This document shows positions 22,430 through 29,656 of a DNA stretch of 34,367 nt, piece by piece. Each line of letters begins with the position of its first letter. Positions within the stretch are counted from its first letter, which is position 1. The translations under genes were made by a program, and so were the position numbers. Source of the stretch: Pseudopedobacter sp. (GTDB taxonomy: Bacteria > Bacteroidota > Bacteroidia > Sphingobacteriales > Sphingobacteriaceae); the NCBI GenBank assembly GCA_014378105.1, contig JACMOI010000116.1, forward strand, positions 1 through 34,367, read 5' to 3'. The notes under the pieces are model-generated. The model did no database searches. It had not been told where the DNA came from and saw only the letters and a list, made by a program, of their open reading frames with translations.

Positions 22430-22577
22430 TTAATCCTTGCTTAATACAATACTTTTGAACTAGCATTATTTTTAAATTGATACCTATTTTGCTATCAACA
22501 TCTTTTTAATTATGTTTTCCTTAACTCTATTTTTTTTACTTTTGAGTTTAATTAATTTTTGATAGAGGCTAATCTTC

Positions 22578-23297
22578 ATGAAGAAAAAAAAAGTATTGAT
22601 TACGGGTGCAAGCAGAGGGTTAGGATTGGCGATAGCTAAAAGAATTTATCAAGAATATGATTTAATATTACACGCTACAAGGGAAGATAGCTTCACTGAG
22701 ATCCCTTCAAATTCGCAACTTTTATGCGCTGATTTCTCTGATAAAGAGCAGGTTGCCAATTTTTGTAAGGAACTGAAAAAACATGGAGATCATCTTTACG
22801 GCATCATTAATAATGCGGGAGTTACTTTCGATAAGCCATTGACTTTTCAGCCGGAGAGAGATATTGATATGATGCTACAGATAAATTTGAGAACACCAAT
22901 GCTCATCTGCAAAACAGCAATGAAGATTTTTGGATTGAATAAAAAAGGAGTCATTATCAATGTAAGTTCTGTAGTTGGCGAAACAGGCAATGCTTTTCAA
23001 TCTATTTATGCTGCAACAAAAGCGGGTTTAGTCGCATTTTCTAAATCTTTGGCAAAAGAAGCAGGCATGCTCAATAACGATCATGAAATAAGGGTTTTGA
23101 GCATTTCACCAGGTTTCTTATCTTCAGACATGACTGATAAAATACCGGAAACGGAGAAAGAGAAATACCTAAGGATGATTCCATCCCAACGTTTTGGAAA
23201 AGTAGAAGAGATTGCAGAGACCATCGCGTTTTTACTATCAGAAAAAGCAGCATATATCAACGGAAGTGACATTAAAATTAATGGAGGAATAATTTAA
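22578..23297 (+). CDS. FabG-like 3-oxoacyl-ACP reductase (SDR)
   Basis: A 239-residue short-chain dehydrogenase that by family would reduce 3-oxoacyl-ACP to 3-hydroxyacyl-ACP with NADPH. Visible features are the Rossmann loop TGASRGLG at 9-16, NNAG at 78-81 and N103. The catalytic triad is S131, Y144 and K148, with the same 13-residue S-Y spacing as E. coli FabG. The substrate loop begins with SPGFLSSDM and the protein ends ...NGGII. It is the first gene of the cluster. Its stop overlaps the start of the dehydratase gene by one base (TAATG), so the two are translationally coupled. Confidence 0.88.
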   Translation: MKKKKVLITGASRGLGLAIAKRIYQEYDLILHATREDSFTEIPSNSQLLCADFSDKEQVANFCKELKKHGDHLYGIINNAGVTFDKPLTFQPERDIDMMLQINLRTPMLICKTAMKIFGLNKKGVIINVSSVVGETGNAFQSIYAATKAGLVAFSKSLAKEAGMLNNDHEIRVLSISPGFLSSDMTDKIPETEKEKYLRMIPSQRFGKVEEIAETIAFLLSEKAAYINGSDIKINGGII

Positions 23298-23847
23298 TGG
23301 AGAATTTGCTAGGTATTGAACCTAAGAATATGCTACTTCACGGACCTACAAAATTATTGTTAGATGCTTTCCATTGGCATCAGCCCCATTTTGGAATAGT
23401 AGCTAGCTACCGCCAAAAGCCAGAGATGTGCATGACCATTTTGGTCTCTTCAGAGGAGTTGACCAAGTAGAGGCTTTTGCACAGGCTACCATTGTCTCCT
23501 GCGGAACGTTTAATGAATGTAAAAAACAGAATACTAGCCCAAAAGATCTTAAAGATAAATTTATCCCCGCTTTTATCAGTATTGGCAATGTGAATTTTCA
23601 TCATTATTTGGAGGAAGGTGAGACATTTATCAGTATTGGGATCATTAAATTCTATAAATTCAGACAGATGGTTTGCGACGGAAGAATTTATAAAATACCA
23701 AGAGATCTAGATTTAGATGCTTATTTTAGAAACTTTAATCAAGATGAAATATCATCATACCAATTAAATAACAATTTCAAATTAGTAGCAGAGTTATTTA
23801 ATATTACTGGCAGAGCATTGAAAAAAGATCTATTTGATAAAGCTTAA
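23297..23847 (+). pseudogene. FabZ-like hotdog dehydratase, split by a frameshift
   Basis: The ATG at 23297 opens MENLLGIEPKNMLLHGP and continues to EM (23423-23428), then runs out of frame to a TAG near 23468. The frame one base back continues HDHFGLFRGVDQVEAFAQA to the stop at 23847. Restoring one base near 23429 (codon TGN before CAT) gives a 183-residue protein that reads like 3-hydroxyacyl-ACP dehydratase: LLHGPTKLLLD, then H48 and E59 as the catalytic pair, then NVNFHHYLEEGETF and DGRIYKI. The His-Glu spacing is 11 residues against 14 in FabZ. The downstream part keeps coding character, so this is a recent mutation or a sequence error. By role it would supply the dehydration step of the cluster. 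Confidence 0.75.
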
Positions 23848-23893
23848 GATCAAATATTGAAGGGCTAAATGTATATAGAGTTAATTAAGAAGT

Positions 23894-24154
23894 ATGGAAA
23901 GACAAGAAATAATTGATGGTTTGATAGAAATCTTAGAAACGGTAAGGACCATCGATCCTGAAAAATTGAAGAATGTAACGGAAGAGACTGATTTCATCTC
24001 AGATTTGAACACGCCGTCTACAGAGATGATTAATATCGCCGCTAAGGCAGAGCAAAAATTTGGGGTAGAGTTTGATGACGATGATATTGATGATTTAGGA
24101 TCTAAGATAAAGGACATTGTTGATTTGATTATTGCTACCAAAGAACGAAGTTAA
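23894..24154 (+). CDS. Acyl carrier protein with PST attachment motif
   Basis: An 86-residue acidic four-helix protein that would carry acyl intermediates on a phosphopantetheine arm. Residues 29-60 (TEETDFISDLNTPSTEMI, then AEQKFGVEFDDDD) align with the ACP helix II region. The attachment serine is S42, within TPSTEM rather than the usual DSL. The acidic recognition helix is present in E43-following positions and at FDDDDIDDL. A 46-base gap separates it from the dehydratase, and the ketosynthase ATG follows its stop by one base. It is probably a dedicated carrier distinct from the housekeeping AcpP, modified by the AcpS-like protein of the same cluster. Confidence 0.85.
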   Translation: MERQEIIDGLIEILETVRTIDPEKLKNVTEETDFISDLNTPSTEMINIAAKAEQKFGVEFDDDDIDDLGSKIKDIVDLIIATKERS

Positions 24155-24155
24155 C

Positions 24156-25504
24156 ATGCAGGTATCTGGAAGAAAAGTTGCTGTTGTTGGCATGGGCGGA
24201 GCATTCCCAACCTGTAAAAACTTGGATGATTTTAATCAGAAACTTTTCTCCAATCAAAGCTTAATCCGCAGTTGGGATAAAGCCAGTATTTTTGAAAAGA
24301 AAATACGTTCCACAGTATCCGGCTTCATCACTGAAGAAGAGATGGATTTAGAGATTATTTCATCATCACTTTTAGAAAATTACCCCGAAACTTACGTGGA
24401 TAAGCTAAACCGCATACCGCCCGGAAACTTGGCTACTGCAGATGTAGGCAGCATCTGGGCAATGCTTGGCGCTTTGGATGCTATAAAAATGGCAGGCTGG
24501 GAAGATCATGAAACTCAATCTCAGCAAACTGGAGTGGTAATTGGCTCAGGTGGAGCAGGTCATGAAGTTTTAAGACATGCATGGCATAATTTCTTTGAAA
24601 GGGGTATAAAACTCGTTTAATAGGGTCCCATGCTGTGGATAGGGCTATGGTTTACCGTGATGCAGCGAACGTATCTTGTTTAATAAATAGTAAGGGAGTT
24701 TGTGAGTCTATAGGCTCTGCCTGCGCAACGGGTTTGGGAAACATCGGCTATGCTTTTCGTCTCATCAAATTTGGTATACAAGATCGTGTGATTGCAGGTG
24801 GTGTTGAAGGAACCTCTTTGGAAACTTTTATTGGTTTCGATGCCATGCAGGTATTAAGCCGTGGTTTTAGTCCAGAGGAGAGTTCCCGTCCCTTTGACAT
24901 GAACCGAAACGGATTTGTATCTTCTTTCGGTGCTGGAATAATAGCTTTAGAAGAGTATGCATCTGCGAAAGCCAGAGGAGCGAAAATATTAGGAGTGATA
25001 GATGATTATTTTAATAATTCTGACGGAGATGGCGATATGTTCTATCCATCTTTTGCTGGGCAACAAAGATTATGGAAAGGTTTACTAACAAACGACAATA
25101 GAAAACCTGATGTGGTTAAAGTTCACGGAACATCAACCCCAGCTGGTGATGCCATTGAATTATTGAGTGTGGTAGACACTTTGGGAAAGAATGACTATCA
25201 TATTTCAGCTCCAAAATCTCAATTCGGACACATGTTGGGGGCCGCGGGTTCAGTAGAGTTTATTACTGCATTGTTGATGCTAGAGAATCAAAAAGTTTTA
25301 CCATGTCTCAACTCCAATATCTTAAACGCTGAGTTGGAGAATTTCCAAAAGACAGATAGTTGGCAAGGTCCAAAAGAACCTTTAGCTGCTTTTAGGGAGT
25401 TAATGCCGAAGGAAAGTTTTAGTAAAGAGATCATTAAAATTGCTTGTCTAAATTACGGTTTCGGTGGAACCAATAGCGCCATTTCTATTTCAAAAGATAT
25501 ATAG
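24156..25504 (+). pseudogene. FabB-like beta-ketoacyl-ACP synthase, split by a frameshift
   Basis: Condensing enzyme of the cluster. From the ATG at 24156 the frame runs to GIK and ends at a TAA at 24618-24620. The frame one base back continues TRLIGSHAVDRAM to the stop at 25504. One extra A in the A-run at 24608-24611 would restore a 449-residue protein. It resembles KAS I (FabB): the active cysteine lies in SACATGLGNIGY (codon 24722-24724, about residue 190). The two histidines lie in VHGTSTPAGD and KSQFGHMLGAAGS, and the end is NYGFGGTNSA. All catalytic residues survive. No chain-length-factor partner is present. Its stop directly abuts the enoyl reductase start. Confidence 0.85.
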
Positions 25505-26317
25505 ATGATTGATAACACCAACAAAGTAGCTATCATATTTGGCGTGAGGAATGAAAGTTCTATCGCTTGGAATATAGCTTTAAAACTTCAAAAATCAGGA
25601 TGCAAAGTCGCTTTGTCTTATGTTATGGACACTAAAGACGAGGTGTTGTATTTGATGGAGAAAGCCGGAATGGAAACCAGATTATCTGCAGACGTTGATG
25701 TGAGAGAAGAAGCTCAAATCACTGCTTTCATTCAAAATATTCATGATGAATTAGGCCCAATAAATTACATTTTACATGGTGTGGCTTATGGCAGTCAGCA
25801 GGTGATGTGTTACAGTTTACCAGGGAGTGATGAGCCAGCGCCTTCTTATTTAAATATTCCTTTTGAGGATTTGATGGATGCATTCAACATCAGCGCTTAT
25901 TCTTTACTAAGGATTTGTCGGGTTGCGAAGCCCTATTTGGCAAAAAATGCTTCGGTACTTACGCTAACATATAATGCATCGCAAAGAGTTTTTCCTGGCT
26001 ATGCTGGCATGGGCATCAATAAAGCGGCTTTAGAAAATATTGTTCTGTACTTGGCAAGTCATTTCCGTGAGGAACAAATCAGGGTGAATGCCATTTCTGC
26101 TGGTTTAATCATGACCACCTCCTCTGGAGGGATAAACGGAGTAAGAACATTGAGAAAGATTGGAAAATTTACTGCACCACTGGGTAACATCACTGCAAAT
26201 GATGTGGGTGATGCAGCGCTCTATTATTTCTCTGACCTTTCTAAAAAAGTGACGGGTAATATTCATTTTGTAGATGGCGGTTTCAACGTGATGGGCGTTT
26301 CAGATGATGGAGAATAA
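25505..26317 (+). CDS. FabI-like enoyl-ACP reductase
   Basis: A 270-residue SDR of the FabI type, which would reduce trans-2-enoyl-ACP with NADH and so make the chain saturated. Evidence: nucleotide loop GVRNESSIAWNIA (13-25), D64/V65 before the adenine pocket, and the FabI-specific triad Y156, Y166 and K173. The triad is offset by exactly ten from E. coli Y146, Y156 and K163, with GYAGMGINKAALE around it. The C-terminus has HFVDGGFNVMG. It starts on the base after the ketosynthase stop and its 3' end overlaps the AcpS-like gene by 14 bases. It could be a second FabI for this pathway rather than the housekeeping copy. Confidence 0.88.
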   Translation: MIDNTNKVAIIFGVRNESSIAWNIALKLQKSGCKVALSYVMDTKDEVLYLMEKAGMETRLSADVDVREEAQITAFIQNIHDELGPINYILHGVAYGSQQVMCYSLPGSDEPAPSYLNIPFEDLMDAFNISAYSLLRICRVAKPYLAKNASVLTLTYNASQRVFPGYAGMGINKAALENIVLYLASHFREEQIRVNAISAGLIMTTSSGGINGVRTLRKIGKFTAPLGNITANDVGDAALYYFSDLSKKVTGNIHFVDGGFNVMGVSDDGE

Positions 26318-26702
26318 ATTACTCCATACTGTCCAGGAAACCATCGCAGGAGAGCGGTTCGCAATGGGGAACGACCTTGTTTTTCTTCCTGATTTTCATA
26401 AATCTTTCACTGAACTATTTAAGAAAAAAGTTTACACAGAAGCGGAACAAGCTTACTGCGATTCTTTTGATGAATCTGTTTTACGTTATGCCTCCACTTG
26501 GGCGGCAAAGGAAGCCGTTTATAAAGCCATTAAACAAATTAATCCGCAAAGTTTAGGTTGGAAAAAATTAGAGATTTTAAGAGAAAAAATTGCCGGAAAA
26601 CCTGAAGTTAAAATCCATCATGATAACAACTCCTATCTTATTAGTTTGAGTATTTCACATGATGGAGATTATGTTTGGGCTGTGGCTTTAGTCAAACTTT
26701 AA
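26304..26702 (+). CDS. AcpS-type phosphopantetheinyl transferase
   Basis: A 132-residue protein of the holo-ACP synthase family, which transfers 4'-phosphopantetheine from CoA to ACP serines. Family motifs are GNDLVFLPDF (D24 as metal ligand), VYTEAEQAYC, ASTWAAKEAVYKAI (E70 as metal ligand), KIAGKPEV at about 95-102 and SLSISHDG at about 114-121. It is close to the usual AcpS size. The first two codons are ATG (26304 and 26307). It lies inside the cluster, overlapping the enoyl reductase by 14 bases, which suggests that it serves the ACP at 23894 in particular. Confidence 0.85.
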   Translation: MMENKLLHTVQETIAGERFAMGNDLVFLPDFHKSFTELFKKKVYTEAEQAYCDSFDESVLRYASTWAAKEAVYKAIKQINPQSLGWKKLEILREKIAGKPEVKIHHDNNSYLISLSISHDGDYVWAVALVKL

Positions 26703-26705
26703 TAT

Positions 26706-27527
26706 ATGACTCATCATCACTTTGATCATCCATTGGCCTCGCTAAGTTATTATAAATTTGGTAAAGGAGAACATGTGATGTTGTGTTTTCATGGGTATGG
26801 AATGCATGGCAAGCAATTTAAAATTCTGGATGATCAGCTCGGTGAAAAATACACTTTTTATTGTTTCGATTTGTTCTTTCATAAAGAGACCAAACTGAAA
26901 GACCAGAGTTTAGCAACTGTAAAAAAAGGAATCACTAAAAAAGAATTGGTAACTTTCATATCAGATTTCTGCAAAAATGAAAAAATTGATAGATTTTCAG
27001 TGCTTTCCTACTCCATGGGAACCCATTATGCCACCGCTATTGCGGAAGAAATGCCCGAAAGAATACACGAATTCATTGCTATTGCACCATCAATTTTAAA
27101 TCCGGGGAAATTGGTAACTTTTTTCAGTCAGTATAAATCAGGAAATAAAATATTAGAGAAATTGGTATTGAGTGAGAAAGCGCTGATTAGGATGTTGAAA
27201 TGGTGTCGTAAATTTAGATTTGTTGATGACATTGGATACAATATTTTGATGAAAGAAATTGGCACTCAAGAATTACGTTTCAGTTTTTACGCTTGCTTCA
27301 TTTATCTGAGGTTTTTGGTTACGGACGAAAATAAATTATTGAAAGCACTAAAGGAACACGCTATCAAATCTATTTTTATATTTGGCAAAAGAGACCTGAT
27401 GTACCCACCTAAAATTGGCGATTCTTTTTTAGGAAAGCTGAATACTGCAAAAGTAATGGTGTTAGAAGAGAATCATGAAATCATCAATAAAAATTTTGCA
27501 GATGCTTTATCTAAAGTTTTAATATGA
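26706..27527 (+). CDS. Alpha/beta hydrolase
   Basis: A 273-residue alpha/beta-fold hydrolase, cytosolic and without signal peptide. HGYG at 29-32 starts the oxyanion region. The nucleophile is S103 in LSYSMGTH, where serine replaces the first glycine of GxSxG. The acid is in FGKRDLMYPP and the base is the histidine of EENHEIIN. Placed after the ACP-pathway genes, it could act as an acyl-ACP thioesterase or ester/amide hydrolase, but no feature fixes the substrate. It lies 3 bases after the AcpS-like gene and overlaps the acyltransferase gene by four bases. Confidence 0.8.
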   Translation: MTHHHFDHPLASLSYYKFGKGEHVMLCFHGYGMHGKQFKILDDQLGEKYTFYCFDLFFHKETKLKDQSLATVKKGITKKELVTFISDFCKNEKIDRFSVLSYSMGTHYATAIAEEMPERIHEFIAIAPSILNPGKLVTFFSQYKSGNKILEKLVLSEKALIRMLKWCRKFRFVDDIGYNILMKEIGTQELRFSFYACFIYLRFLVTDENKLLKALKEHAIKSIFIFGKRDLMYPPKIGDSFLGKLNTAKVMVLEENHEIINKNFADALSKVLI

Positions 27528-28171
27528 TTAAAGATAAGCCTTTTCCAACTCGCCTTTTTAAAATTGGAGCGACGATATTCAATTGGTACATGAGAGGAAA
27601 ATTCAATAAACTCATCATTAATCAAATAGAAATCAAACCCAATCATTCTTATTTATTGATGTGCAATCATTTTAGTTTTTGGGATGGACCTTTAGTATTT
27701 TATCTGATTCGTAGAGCTATTGATAAAAGGCAGCCATTGACAAGCATTAAAATCATGGTAATGAAAAAACAGATGGTGATGAATAAATGGTTAAAATATG
27801 TTGGCTGTTTCTCCATTTCGCCAGGAATTGGAGCTATAGAAAAGAGTCTGAATTATGCTGCTGAATCTTTGAATGAGCCAGGAAATTTACTGCTCATGTA
27901 TCCTCAAGGAAATTTGGAATCCTCCCATATTAGAGAAATTAAATTTAAGGAAGGAATTGCCAGCATCATTCCAAAAATTAAAGGAGATTGCCAATTAATT
28001 TGGTGTTCAACACTTACAGAATATTTTGAAAGCATAAAGCCAACCGTTTATTTTGATATGCTAGACTGTGGCACCAATCATGATTTTAATTTTGAAAGGT
28101 TAAAAGAGAAAGTAAATCAACATCACAAAAATGCAATTAAAAAGCAATTTAGATTTACTGATGAAAGCTGA
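27524..28171 (+). CDS. PlsC-like acyltransferase
   Basis: A 215-residue protein of the glycerophosphate/lysophosphatidate acyltransferase family. The HxxxxD motif is H49-x4-D54 in NHFSFWDG. The acceptor-binding motif is YPQGNLES at 126-133, where FPEGTRS is usual, so the typical Glu is Gln here. Amphipathic N-terminal residues suggest peripheral membrane association. As the last gene of the cluster it probably transfers the finished acyl chain to a lipid-type acceptor. The altered motif suggests an acceptor other than lysophosphatidate. It converges with the TPR gene across 3 bases. Confidence 0.82.
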   Translation: MIKDKPFPTRLFKIGATIFNWYMRGKFNKLIINQIEIKPNHSYLLMCNHFSFWDGPLVFYLIRRAIDKRQPLTSIKIMVMKKQMVMNKWLKYVGCFSISPGIGAIEKSLNYAAESLNEPGNLLLMYPQGNLESSHIREIKFKEGIASIIPKIKGDCQLIWCSTLTEYFESIKPTVYFDMLDCGTNHDFNFERLKEKVNQHHKNAIKKQFRFTDES

Positions 28172-28174
28172 AAA

Positions 28175-29656
28175 TTAATTGCTTAAACGTCTTAGTCCAT
28201 CTTTTGCTTTTGTTTCTATACTATTCTCATATTCATGATTTTTCATAGAAACGGCTAGATTATAATATGCAATGGCCTTTGCTTTATTATTCTGATGCTC
28301 ATAAATTTTCCCAACGTTTAAAGCCGCATTTGAGGCAAAATAATAAGAGGTGTTTTTGCCTAAACTAATGGCTTTATTGTAGTTAGATATCGCGGTATTA
28401 TCGTTGCCCATTTCATCATATACCCTTCCTAATCTATAATAATATTCTAATTGATTTTTTTGTGGTTGAAGCTCATTAGGGCTTTTACTATTTAAAACCG
28501 CTAAAGCTTTGCTGTAATAACCCCCATCAAAATAAAAGCGAGCTTTTAATAAATCAATATCAGGATTAGTCTCGTTAGACTCTTTTAATGCTTCTTTATC
28601 CTTTTCATCATAAACAGTACCCTGTGTTTTCACTAGCCTTGCAAAGGCTAAATATTTACTTTTATCACCTCGCAAAAGATAATAATAAGCCAGTTTCATG
28701 TAAGCATCTTTAACATAATTAATGCCTTCATAATCCTTTAAATACCTTGCTAAATAGATATTAGCATCGGAATCCATTCGGTTTAGTTTGGCATTACCCA
28801 ACAAATAATTTATTGCTGGAAAATTGATATATCCATCTTTTGTGGGTCTCCTTTGTAAGATCTCAATAGCATCATCATTATGAGCCATTTTACCAGCTAA
28901 ATAACCTTGAATATAGATTTTTAACAAACTACTGTTCCCTAAAGTATTACTGAAAGTTATTAATTTTTGATAGCTCAAGCCATTATTTACAATGTCAGTT
29001 TGTATGTAGCACAGGAAAAATGCCACTTCATTTTTATAAAAATCGTATGGTGTTTTCGATAAGGAATAAAACAAATGCTCCAAATCTCGGCTTCCATTTT
29101 CTACGCTACCACTAAAACCGAAAGTATTTAATAAACCTCTCACATTGGACGGGGCCGCTCCTAAAATCACATCAATTAAAGCTAGGCTTTTCTTGTTTAA
29201 TGGAAAATTTGGATATTTTCTTGAGTTTTCTAAAAGAAGAGACCTTGCTCTTTTTATATCTAAACCAGATGAAAGAAAATCCTGAAACCTACCTTTAATC
29301 AAACCCCATTGTAAAGTTACTTCAGCTTGGCAAAAGAGATAATAAGGGGAATTTTTATCTTGTTTTTCTAATAAGGATATACGTTGTCCTTTTAAATCTT
29401 TTAAATGATTATAGTCAGCTAATTTACCAGATGATATAAGAGAAAAGAAATCAATATAATTATCTAATAAAACAGTAATTCCATTTTCTGAATTTTGATT
29501 TTTCTCTAATTGAATAATTTTTCGGGCATCATCTAATCTTAAATCATATATAGCTTCATAAGCATTTTTACAATTTTCATTAAAGTCAAAATTAGCTTTA
29601 GCTTGAAGTTGTACAATAAAAAATAAAATAAAAGCTATAATTTTTTTAAATGACAT
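28175..29656 (-). CDS. Secreted TPR-repeat protein of unknown function
   Basis: A 493-residue exported protein with a signal peptide (about 1-22, MSFKKIIAFILFF, cleavage near KAN). The rest is alpha-helical with tetratricopeptide-like repeats. The clearest lie in the last third (for example YYYRLGRVYDEMGNDNTAISNYNKAISL, split as consecutive repeats, then NVGKIYEHQNNKAKAIAYYNLAVSM). It has no catalytic motif and probably mediates protein contacts in the periplasm. The upstream terminator at 29685-29708 separates it from the zinc-ribbon gene, so it is transcribed alone. Confidence 0.8.
   Translation of the reverse strand: MSFKKIIAFILFFIVQLQAKANFDFNENCKNAYEAIYDLRLDDARKIIQLEKNQNSENGITVLLDNYIDFFSLISSGKLADYNHLKDLKGQRISLLEKQDKNSPYYLFCQAEVTLQWGLIKGRFQDFLSSGLDIKRARSLLLENSRKYPNFPLNKKSLALIDVILGAAPSNVRGLLNTFGFSGSVENGSRDLEHLFYSLSKTPYDFYKNEVAFFLCYIQTDIVNNGLSYQKLITFSNTLGNSSLLKIYIQGYLAGKMAHNDDAIEILQRRPTKDGYINFPAINYLLGNAKLNRMDSDANIYLARYLKDYEGINYVKDAYMKLAYYYLLRGDKSKYLAFARLVKTQGTVYDEKDKEALKESNETNPDIDLLKARFYFDGGYYSKALAVLNSKSPNELQPQKNQLEYYYRLGRVYDEMGNDNTAISNYNKAISLGKNTSYYFASNAALNVGKIYEHQNNKAKAIAYYNLAVSMKNHEYENSIETKAKDGLRRLSN

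Follow-up and report, generated by a model that had tools for sequence, protein, structure and literature searches.

A conserved eight-gene operon of Sphingobacteriaceae predicted to encode a dedicated type II fatty acid synthase with its own carrier protein and acyltransferase

Contig JACMOI010000116.1 of the Pseudopedobacter sp. assembly GCA_014378105.1, whose 34,367 nucleotides form the window analyzed here, carries at positions 22578-28171 eight plus-strand genes that would together make up a dedicated, self-contained type II fatty acid synthase (FAS II) module passing an acyl chain from a private acyl carrier protein (ACP) to an acceptor. We give this reading a probability of about 0.68. 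The genes of this 5.6-kb operon encode, in order, a ketoreductase (KR), a dehydratase (DH), the ACP, a ketosynthase (KS), an enoyl reductase (ER), an AcpS-type 4'-phosphopantetheinyl transferase (PPTase), an alpha/beta hydrolase (ABH), and a PlsC-like acyltransferase. The reading is based on gene content, catalytic motifs, the folds of the DH and the PlsC-like enzyme, conservation of the genes as a unit, their separateness from the housekeeping FAS, and purifying selection.

Results

An initial annotation of this DNA had described the cluster and had suggested a search for conserved gene neighborhoods. That search was strongly positive, as 51 of the 61 long loci related to this one have all eight genes, in identical order and on one strand. 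Comparison with genome G006 (Bacteroidetes metagenome-assembled genome [MAG] OSS_A.mb.40, record JAHJVW010000041.1), whose locus L033 shares 96% nucleotide identity with the source, gave dN/dS values of 0.06 to 0.31 for each cluster gene or gene piece, and the cluster genes are therefore under purifying selection. Since order and strand are kept in 51 of the 61 long loci under such selection, the eight-gene arrangement is far beyond chance. The loci are nearly all from Sphingobacteriaceae (Pedobacter, Mucilaginibacter, Daejeonella, and Pelobium), and the genes flanking the cluster differ among many of the genomes that carry it.

A search of 84,980 species genomes with the DH returned 70 loci, nearly all in Sphingobacteriaceae, together with two in Zobellia and one in a Flavobacteriales MAG. 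The KS was present in 17 of 17 sampled congeners, in 4 of 19 other sampled family members, and in 57 of 301 genomes of a wider Sphingobacteriaceae sample; across the phylum (395 genomes), it was found in only two genomes besides the source genome. The distribution is patchy and accessory-like, and no KS copies were found in plasmid records. In a KS tree, built from a quick search only and with two fragmentary rows misplaced, the cluster KS stood apart from FabF and the genera were mixed, which suggests some transfer or loss. Dozens of species in this common soil and freshwater family thus carry the cluster. No published description of it, and no match to a characterized cluster, was found in the literature searched, a set that leaves out most subscription-journal papers.

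The genes are closely packed. KR and DH overlap by 1 nucleotide (nt), ER and AcpS by 14 nt, and ABH and PlsC by 4 nt; the gaps are 46 nt between DH and ACP, 1 nt between ACP and KS, 0 nt between KS and ER, and 3 nt between AcpS and ABH. The KR (22578-23297; 239 amino acids) is a FabG-like 3-oxoacyl-ACP reductase of the short-chain dehydrogenase/reductase (SDR) family (Pfam adh_short_C2, 5.7e-43). Its score against the NCBIfam FabG model TIGR01830 is 205 bits, below the cut-off of that model, and the S-Y-K motif is present in 66 of 66 homologs. The DH (23297-23847) matched no Pfam or NCBIfam family in profile searches, and the sequence profiles of the DH and of the PlsC-like enzyme gave no significant match in the PDB. 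However, the AlphaFold model of the DH (pLDDT 83) has a hotdog fold with FabZ as the best PDB matches (Foldseek E value, 5e-7), and all 68 homologs retain the catalytic His and Glu. The modeled fold and the His...Glu dyad point to a divergent dehydratase of the FabZ type.

The ACP (23894-24154; 86 amino acids) scores 20.9 bits against Pfam PP-binding, for which the cut-off is 20.8 bits. Its serine lies in a PST motif; by pattern, 52 of 54 homologs have PST, PSS, or PSA in place of the canonical DSL, and the other two were read by eye as PSA or PSS. The KS (24156-25504) matches the N- and C-terminal ketoacyl-synt domains of Pfam, and its active-site Cys and first His motifs are present in 68 of 68 homologs. 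The best PDB matches were 3-ketoacyl-ACP synthase I (KAS I, FabB), with a small NCBIfam margin of FabB over FabF; together with the Cys-His-His triad, this relationship suggests a KS of the KAS I kind. The ER (25505-26317) is FabI-like (PDB FabI, 7e-54; NCBIfam PRK08415, 194 bits, under the curated FabI cut-offs). The Tyr / Tyr-x6-Lys motif, found in 64 of 64 homologs, and membership in the SDR family likewise indicate from the sequence an enzyme of the FabI type, in which the loop preceding the SAYSL helix is longer by about nine residues than in the housekeeping FabI of the source genome.

The three remaining genes encode the AcpS-type PPTase (26304-26702; 132 amino acids; Pfam ACPS, 2.3e-12), the ABH (26706-27527; Pfam Abhydrolase_1, 5.7e-8), and the PlsC-like enzyme (27524-28171; 215 amino acids; Pfam PF01553, 1.1e-8). 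The ABH has an invariant Ser103/Asp230/His257 set and is a candidate thioesterase. The NHx4D (NHxxxxD) motif of the acyltransferase is present in 58 of 58 homologs, and its predicted model matches PlsC (5kym; Foldseek E value, 1.2e-5), so that motif and modeled LPLAT fold are consistent with the PlsC/LPLAT family. The order, strand, spacing, and family assignments given in the initial annotation all held, as did its claim, at the level of gene content, of a complete dedicated reductive cycle supplied with a private carrier and PPTase. Its eight genes stand in content and order, with the correction that neither DH nor KS is an intact open reading frame (ORF) in the source assembly.

The DH is split between two frames (23297-23470 and 23407-23847), with one base fewer than L033 at approximately 23411. 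The KS is likewise split (24156-24620 and 24599-25504) by a -2/+1 change near 24601-24607 relative to L033, which adjoins a G run. In G006, each is a single intact ORF (DH, 183 amino acids; KS, approximately 449 to 457 amino acids); the KS is intact in all other relatives as well, and the DH is also a single ORF in other relatives. Across the 13.6 kb compared with L033, these two events are the only frameshifting indels in coding sequence, and none was found in the other cluster genes or in the compared flanking genes. They are either recent mutations or assembly errors in this draft genome of 191 contigs.

We then asked how the cluster relates to the housekeeping enzymes. The source assembly has a second FabI on contig C173 and, on contig C148, an Sfp-type PPTase of 213 amino acids that differs from the cluster AcpS; relatives, G006 included, have a separate 417-amino-acid FabF. 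Because these counterparts exist, the cluster is, judging by sequence, distinct from the housekeeping FAS II, as the initial annotation had held. A second KS or a housekeeping FabF was not found in the source MAG, which we take to reflect its incompleteness.

Deeper relatives of the cluster were found in Zobellia (L118 and L119), in the Flavobacteriales MAG (L121), and in a genome of another family (G916, locus L144). FabA is usually described from Proteobacteria. In these relatives the gene order is KR-FabA-DH-ACP-KS-ER-AcpS, and the extra dehydratase gene inside the operon (L118:7313-7999, L119:7313-7999, L121:3667-4305, and L144:7763-8455) is clearly a FabA: Pfam identified it as such in the two cases tested and a PDB match in the one case tested, and both the HFxGDPVMPG motif and the Asp motif downstream of it can be seen. 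The Sphingobacteriaceae form of the cluster has no FabA, and none was found elsewhere in the sampled Sphingobacteriaceae genomes when it was sought.

The downstream hydrolase and PlsC genes are absent from the deeper relatives, and Zobellia has a different hydrolase upstream. A gene similar to FeeM and to acetyltransferases of the OlsB type overlaps KR in both G916 and L121. The two products are 35% identical to each other, keep the E-x-x-R-L motif, and both match PF13444 below its threshold; the Pfam FeeM match is weak in G916 (21.7 bits, where the cut-off is 27) and absent in the L121 gene. A tetratricopeptide repeat (TPR) protein with a C-terminal LuxR-type (GerE) helix-turn-helix, clear in G916 and weak in L121, is encoded 5' of the FeeM/OlsB-like gene, and the two genes stand directly 5' of the FAS core (L144:4262-7032 and L121:27-2894). 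In layout, they are similar to a LuxI/LuxR pair. N-acyltransferases of the FeeM/OlsB-like kind were not found in the Sphingobacteriaceae loci. The FabA-bearing deep form, the exchange of the terminal gene in two lineages, and both frameshifts are additions to the initial annotation.

Discussion

In the proposed pathway, the private AcpS would load phosphopantetheine onto the private PST-motif ACP, on which the KAS I-like KS would extend the chain with malonyl units that presumably come from housekeeping FabD, none being encoded in the cluster. The KR would reduce, the divergent FabZ-type DH would dehydrate, and the FabI-like ER would saturate the growing chain; the PlsC-like acyltransferase would move the finished chain to the acceptor, and the ABH would release or proofread thioesters. 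We infer in this model the order of the reactions, the exclusivity of the carrier, the saturation of the chain, and its transfer to an acceptor that is a lyso-lipid or a small polar molecule. Because a FeeM/OlsB-like gene replaces the hydrolase and PlsC in two lineages, the core probably supplies acyl-ACP while the acceptor most likely depends on the terminal gene; we read the whole as a portable module whose final transferase can be exchanged. In the Sphingobacteriaceae form, the PlsC-like enzyme probably O-acylates (esterifies) the acceptor, with the hydrolase acting as a thioesterase. The initial annotation had proposed a dedicated saturated chain; the dedicated cycle is upheld, whereas saturation is less certain in view of the ER loop insertion and the FabA-type dehydratase/isomerase of the deeper relatives. 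Its observation is confirmed and its interpretation partly supported.

Several observations weigh against a dedicated, self-contained module. Both DH and KS are frameshifted in the source assembly, where the module may be broken unless these are assembly errors, and the FeeM match on which the exchange of the last gene partly draws is below the Pfam cut-off. Several clusters that are complete in other respects (L076, L094, L104, and L110) have no ABH, and a few have lost the ER or KR; housekeeping enzymes may therefore take over these steps, or the steps may not be needed.

That the cluster of the source genome is decaying or dead, with DH and KS as pseudogenes in an operon on its way to loss, has in our estimate somewhat less than an even chance. 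Two frameshifted genes in a 5.6-kb operon, beside compared flanking genes free of such indels, are what decay would leave. On the other hand, dN/dS is low for all parts, the relative with 96% identity has both DH and KS intact, and a mixed -2/+1 change beside a G run is a pattern that sequencing error can give; even a dead copy here would leave the family-wide interpretation unaffected. It is improbable that the cluster makes membrane fatty acids as a housekeeping FAS II held in reserve or insensitive to inhibitors. The whole reductive cycle with a divergent FabI-like ER would suit such a role, but the private PST-motif ACP with its AcpS, the cluster-specific acyltransferase, the absence of FabH and FabD from the eight-gene cluster, and the patchy distribution all speak against it.

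A narrower version of the dedicated-module reading, compatible with it, is that the cluster makes a defined chain for an N-acyl amino acid or another small acylated molecule and so serves a signal or surfactant as its own source of acyl groups, with the PlsC-like enzyme and hydrolase of Sphingobacteriaceae in place of the FeeM-like synthase of the deeper relatives. The overlap of the FeeM/OlsB-like gene with KR and the upstream TPR-LuxR (GerE) regulator in G916, repeated with a weaker GerE domain in L121, agree with this, as does the E-x-x-R-L motif, given that FeeM-type enzymes are reported to use acyl-ACP and a catalytic Glu (PMC4897644). With a weak FeeM match and no such N-acyltransferase in the Sphingobacteriaceae loci, however, we regard this as less likely than not. 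A type II polyene pathway, such as aryl polyene (APE) or flexirubin biosynthesis, is very improbable. The toolkit of KR, DH, ACP, KS, PlsC-like acyltransferase, and hydrolase is similar, and FlxB was among the lesser KR matches. Yet the single KS has full catalytic residues and no chain-length factor (CLF) partner, a FabI-like ER is present in 59 of 61 loci, and there are no aromatic starter or export genes, so the cluster is unlike these pathways, as the initial annotation had also argued.

Compared with known systems, the E. coli APE cluster shares private FAS-like enzymes, a PlsC-like acyltransferase, and a thioesterase with the present one; it differs in content by its KS/CLF pair, aromatic starter, and export genes and by the lack of an ER and of its own PPTase (PMC8253772). 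The rhizobial acpXL-fabZXL-fabF1XL-fabF2XL-lpxXL cluster, which makes the very-long-chain fatty acid of lipid A (PMC5613085), similarly combines a private ACP, a dehydratase, KS, and a terminal acyltransferase. It builds one special acyl chain that is attached to an envelope lipid, and by analogy the present cluster may work likewise. The rhizobial cluster, however, has two FabF-like KS, the LpxL-type acyltransferase LpxXL, and no ER or PPTase of its own among the listed genes. In the present cluster a single KAS I-like KS is joined by both KR and ER, by AcpS, by a hydrolase, and by a PlsC-type enzyme, and the cluster is not a member of the AcpXL-like group.

The anaerobic unsaturated fatty acid pathway depends on FabA and FabB. 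The KAS I-like KS and, in the Zobellia, L121, and G916 forms, the FabA-type dehydratase resemble it, but the present genes are borne on an operon with their own ACP, ER, and AcpS, and the Sphingobacteriaceae form lacks FabA. The FeeM-type N-acyl amino acid synthases and the OlsB/OlsA and GlsB/GlsA aminolipid pathways feed acyl-ACP to a GNAT N-acyltransferase (PMC11631085, PMC4897644), which the FeeM/OlsB-like genes of the two deep relatives resemble; OlsB is a member of PF13444, and OlsA has motifs in common with PlsC (PMC11631085). Primary metabolism is the presumed source of the acyl-ACP that goes into N-acyl amino acids (PMC12479983), whereas here the acyl-ACP machinery would be dedicated and the Sphingobacteriaceae form has no N-acyltransferase.

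If the dedicated-module reading is true, the cluster would represent a class of dedicated FAS operons, so far without a name, in a family common in soil and fresh water. It would predict that many cultured strains of Pedobacter, Mucilaginibacter, and Daejeonella make an acylated lipid or small molecule, and it would offer a compact carrier/AcpS/KS set for defined acyl-ACP production. More speculatively, and rather unlikely in our view, it may be a portable acyl-supply cassette of Bacteroidota, in which a private FAS with an orthogonal carrier/AcpS pair has been re-plugged among final acyltransferases for lineage-specific acylated signals or envelope lipids; the final enzyme would be, in the deep lineages, an N-acyl synthase similar to FeeM and LuxI and controlled by a LuxR-type regulator, and in Sphingobacteriaceae, PlsC plus hydrolase. 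The exchange of a PlsC-type for a FeeM-type terminal gene provides a direct test of how a private acyl supply couples to different acceptors.

Promoter motifs and neighboring genes

The consensus -7 promoter element of Bacteroidota is TAnnTTTG. Two exact matches lie on the plus strand 5' of KR: a distal one at 22450-22457, also present in L033, and a proximal one at 22537-22544, 40 bp 5' of the KR start and with identical spacing in L033. Among the related loci, 42 of 66 have such a motif no more than 250 bp 5' of KR, compared with 15% of shuffles.

Downstream, a minus-strand gene for a putatively exported TPR protein (28175-29656) adjoins the cluster in 38 of 61 loci. It occurs also in genomes without the cluster, and we regard it as a favored neighbor and not as a pathway gene. 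Past the TPR gene, nonribosomal peptide synthetase-polyketide synthase genes were seen in L136/L137 (G031:C15:109758-120580) and in seven other Mucilaginibacter loci; these could be linked to the cluster, and the association is not general across loci. In three species, AcpS and ABH are separated by a RES/Xre toxin-antitoxin pair (L034:11548-12506, and also in L036 and L037), whose two genes were rejected as pathway members. The clusters of Pedobacter insulae (L104) and P. planticolens (L115) have no ABH, and that of L115 also has no ER; the two have a different flanking block in common, which may be a mobile element.

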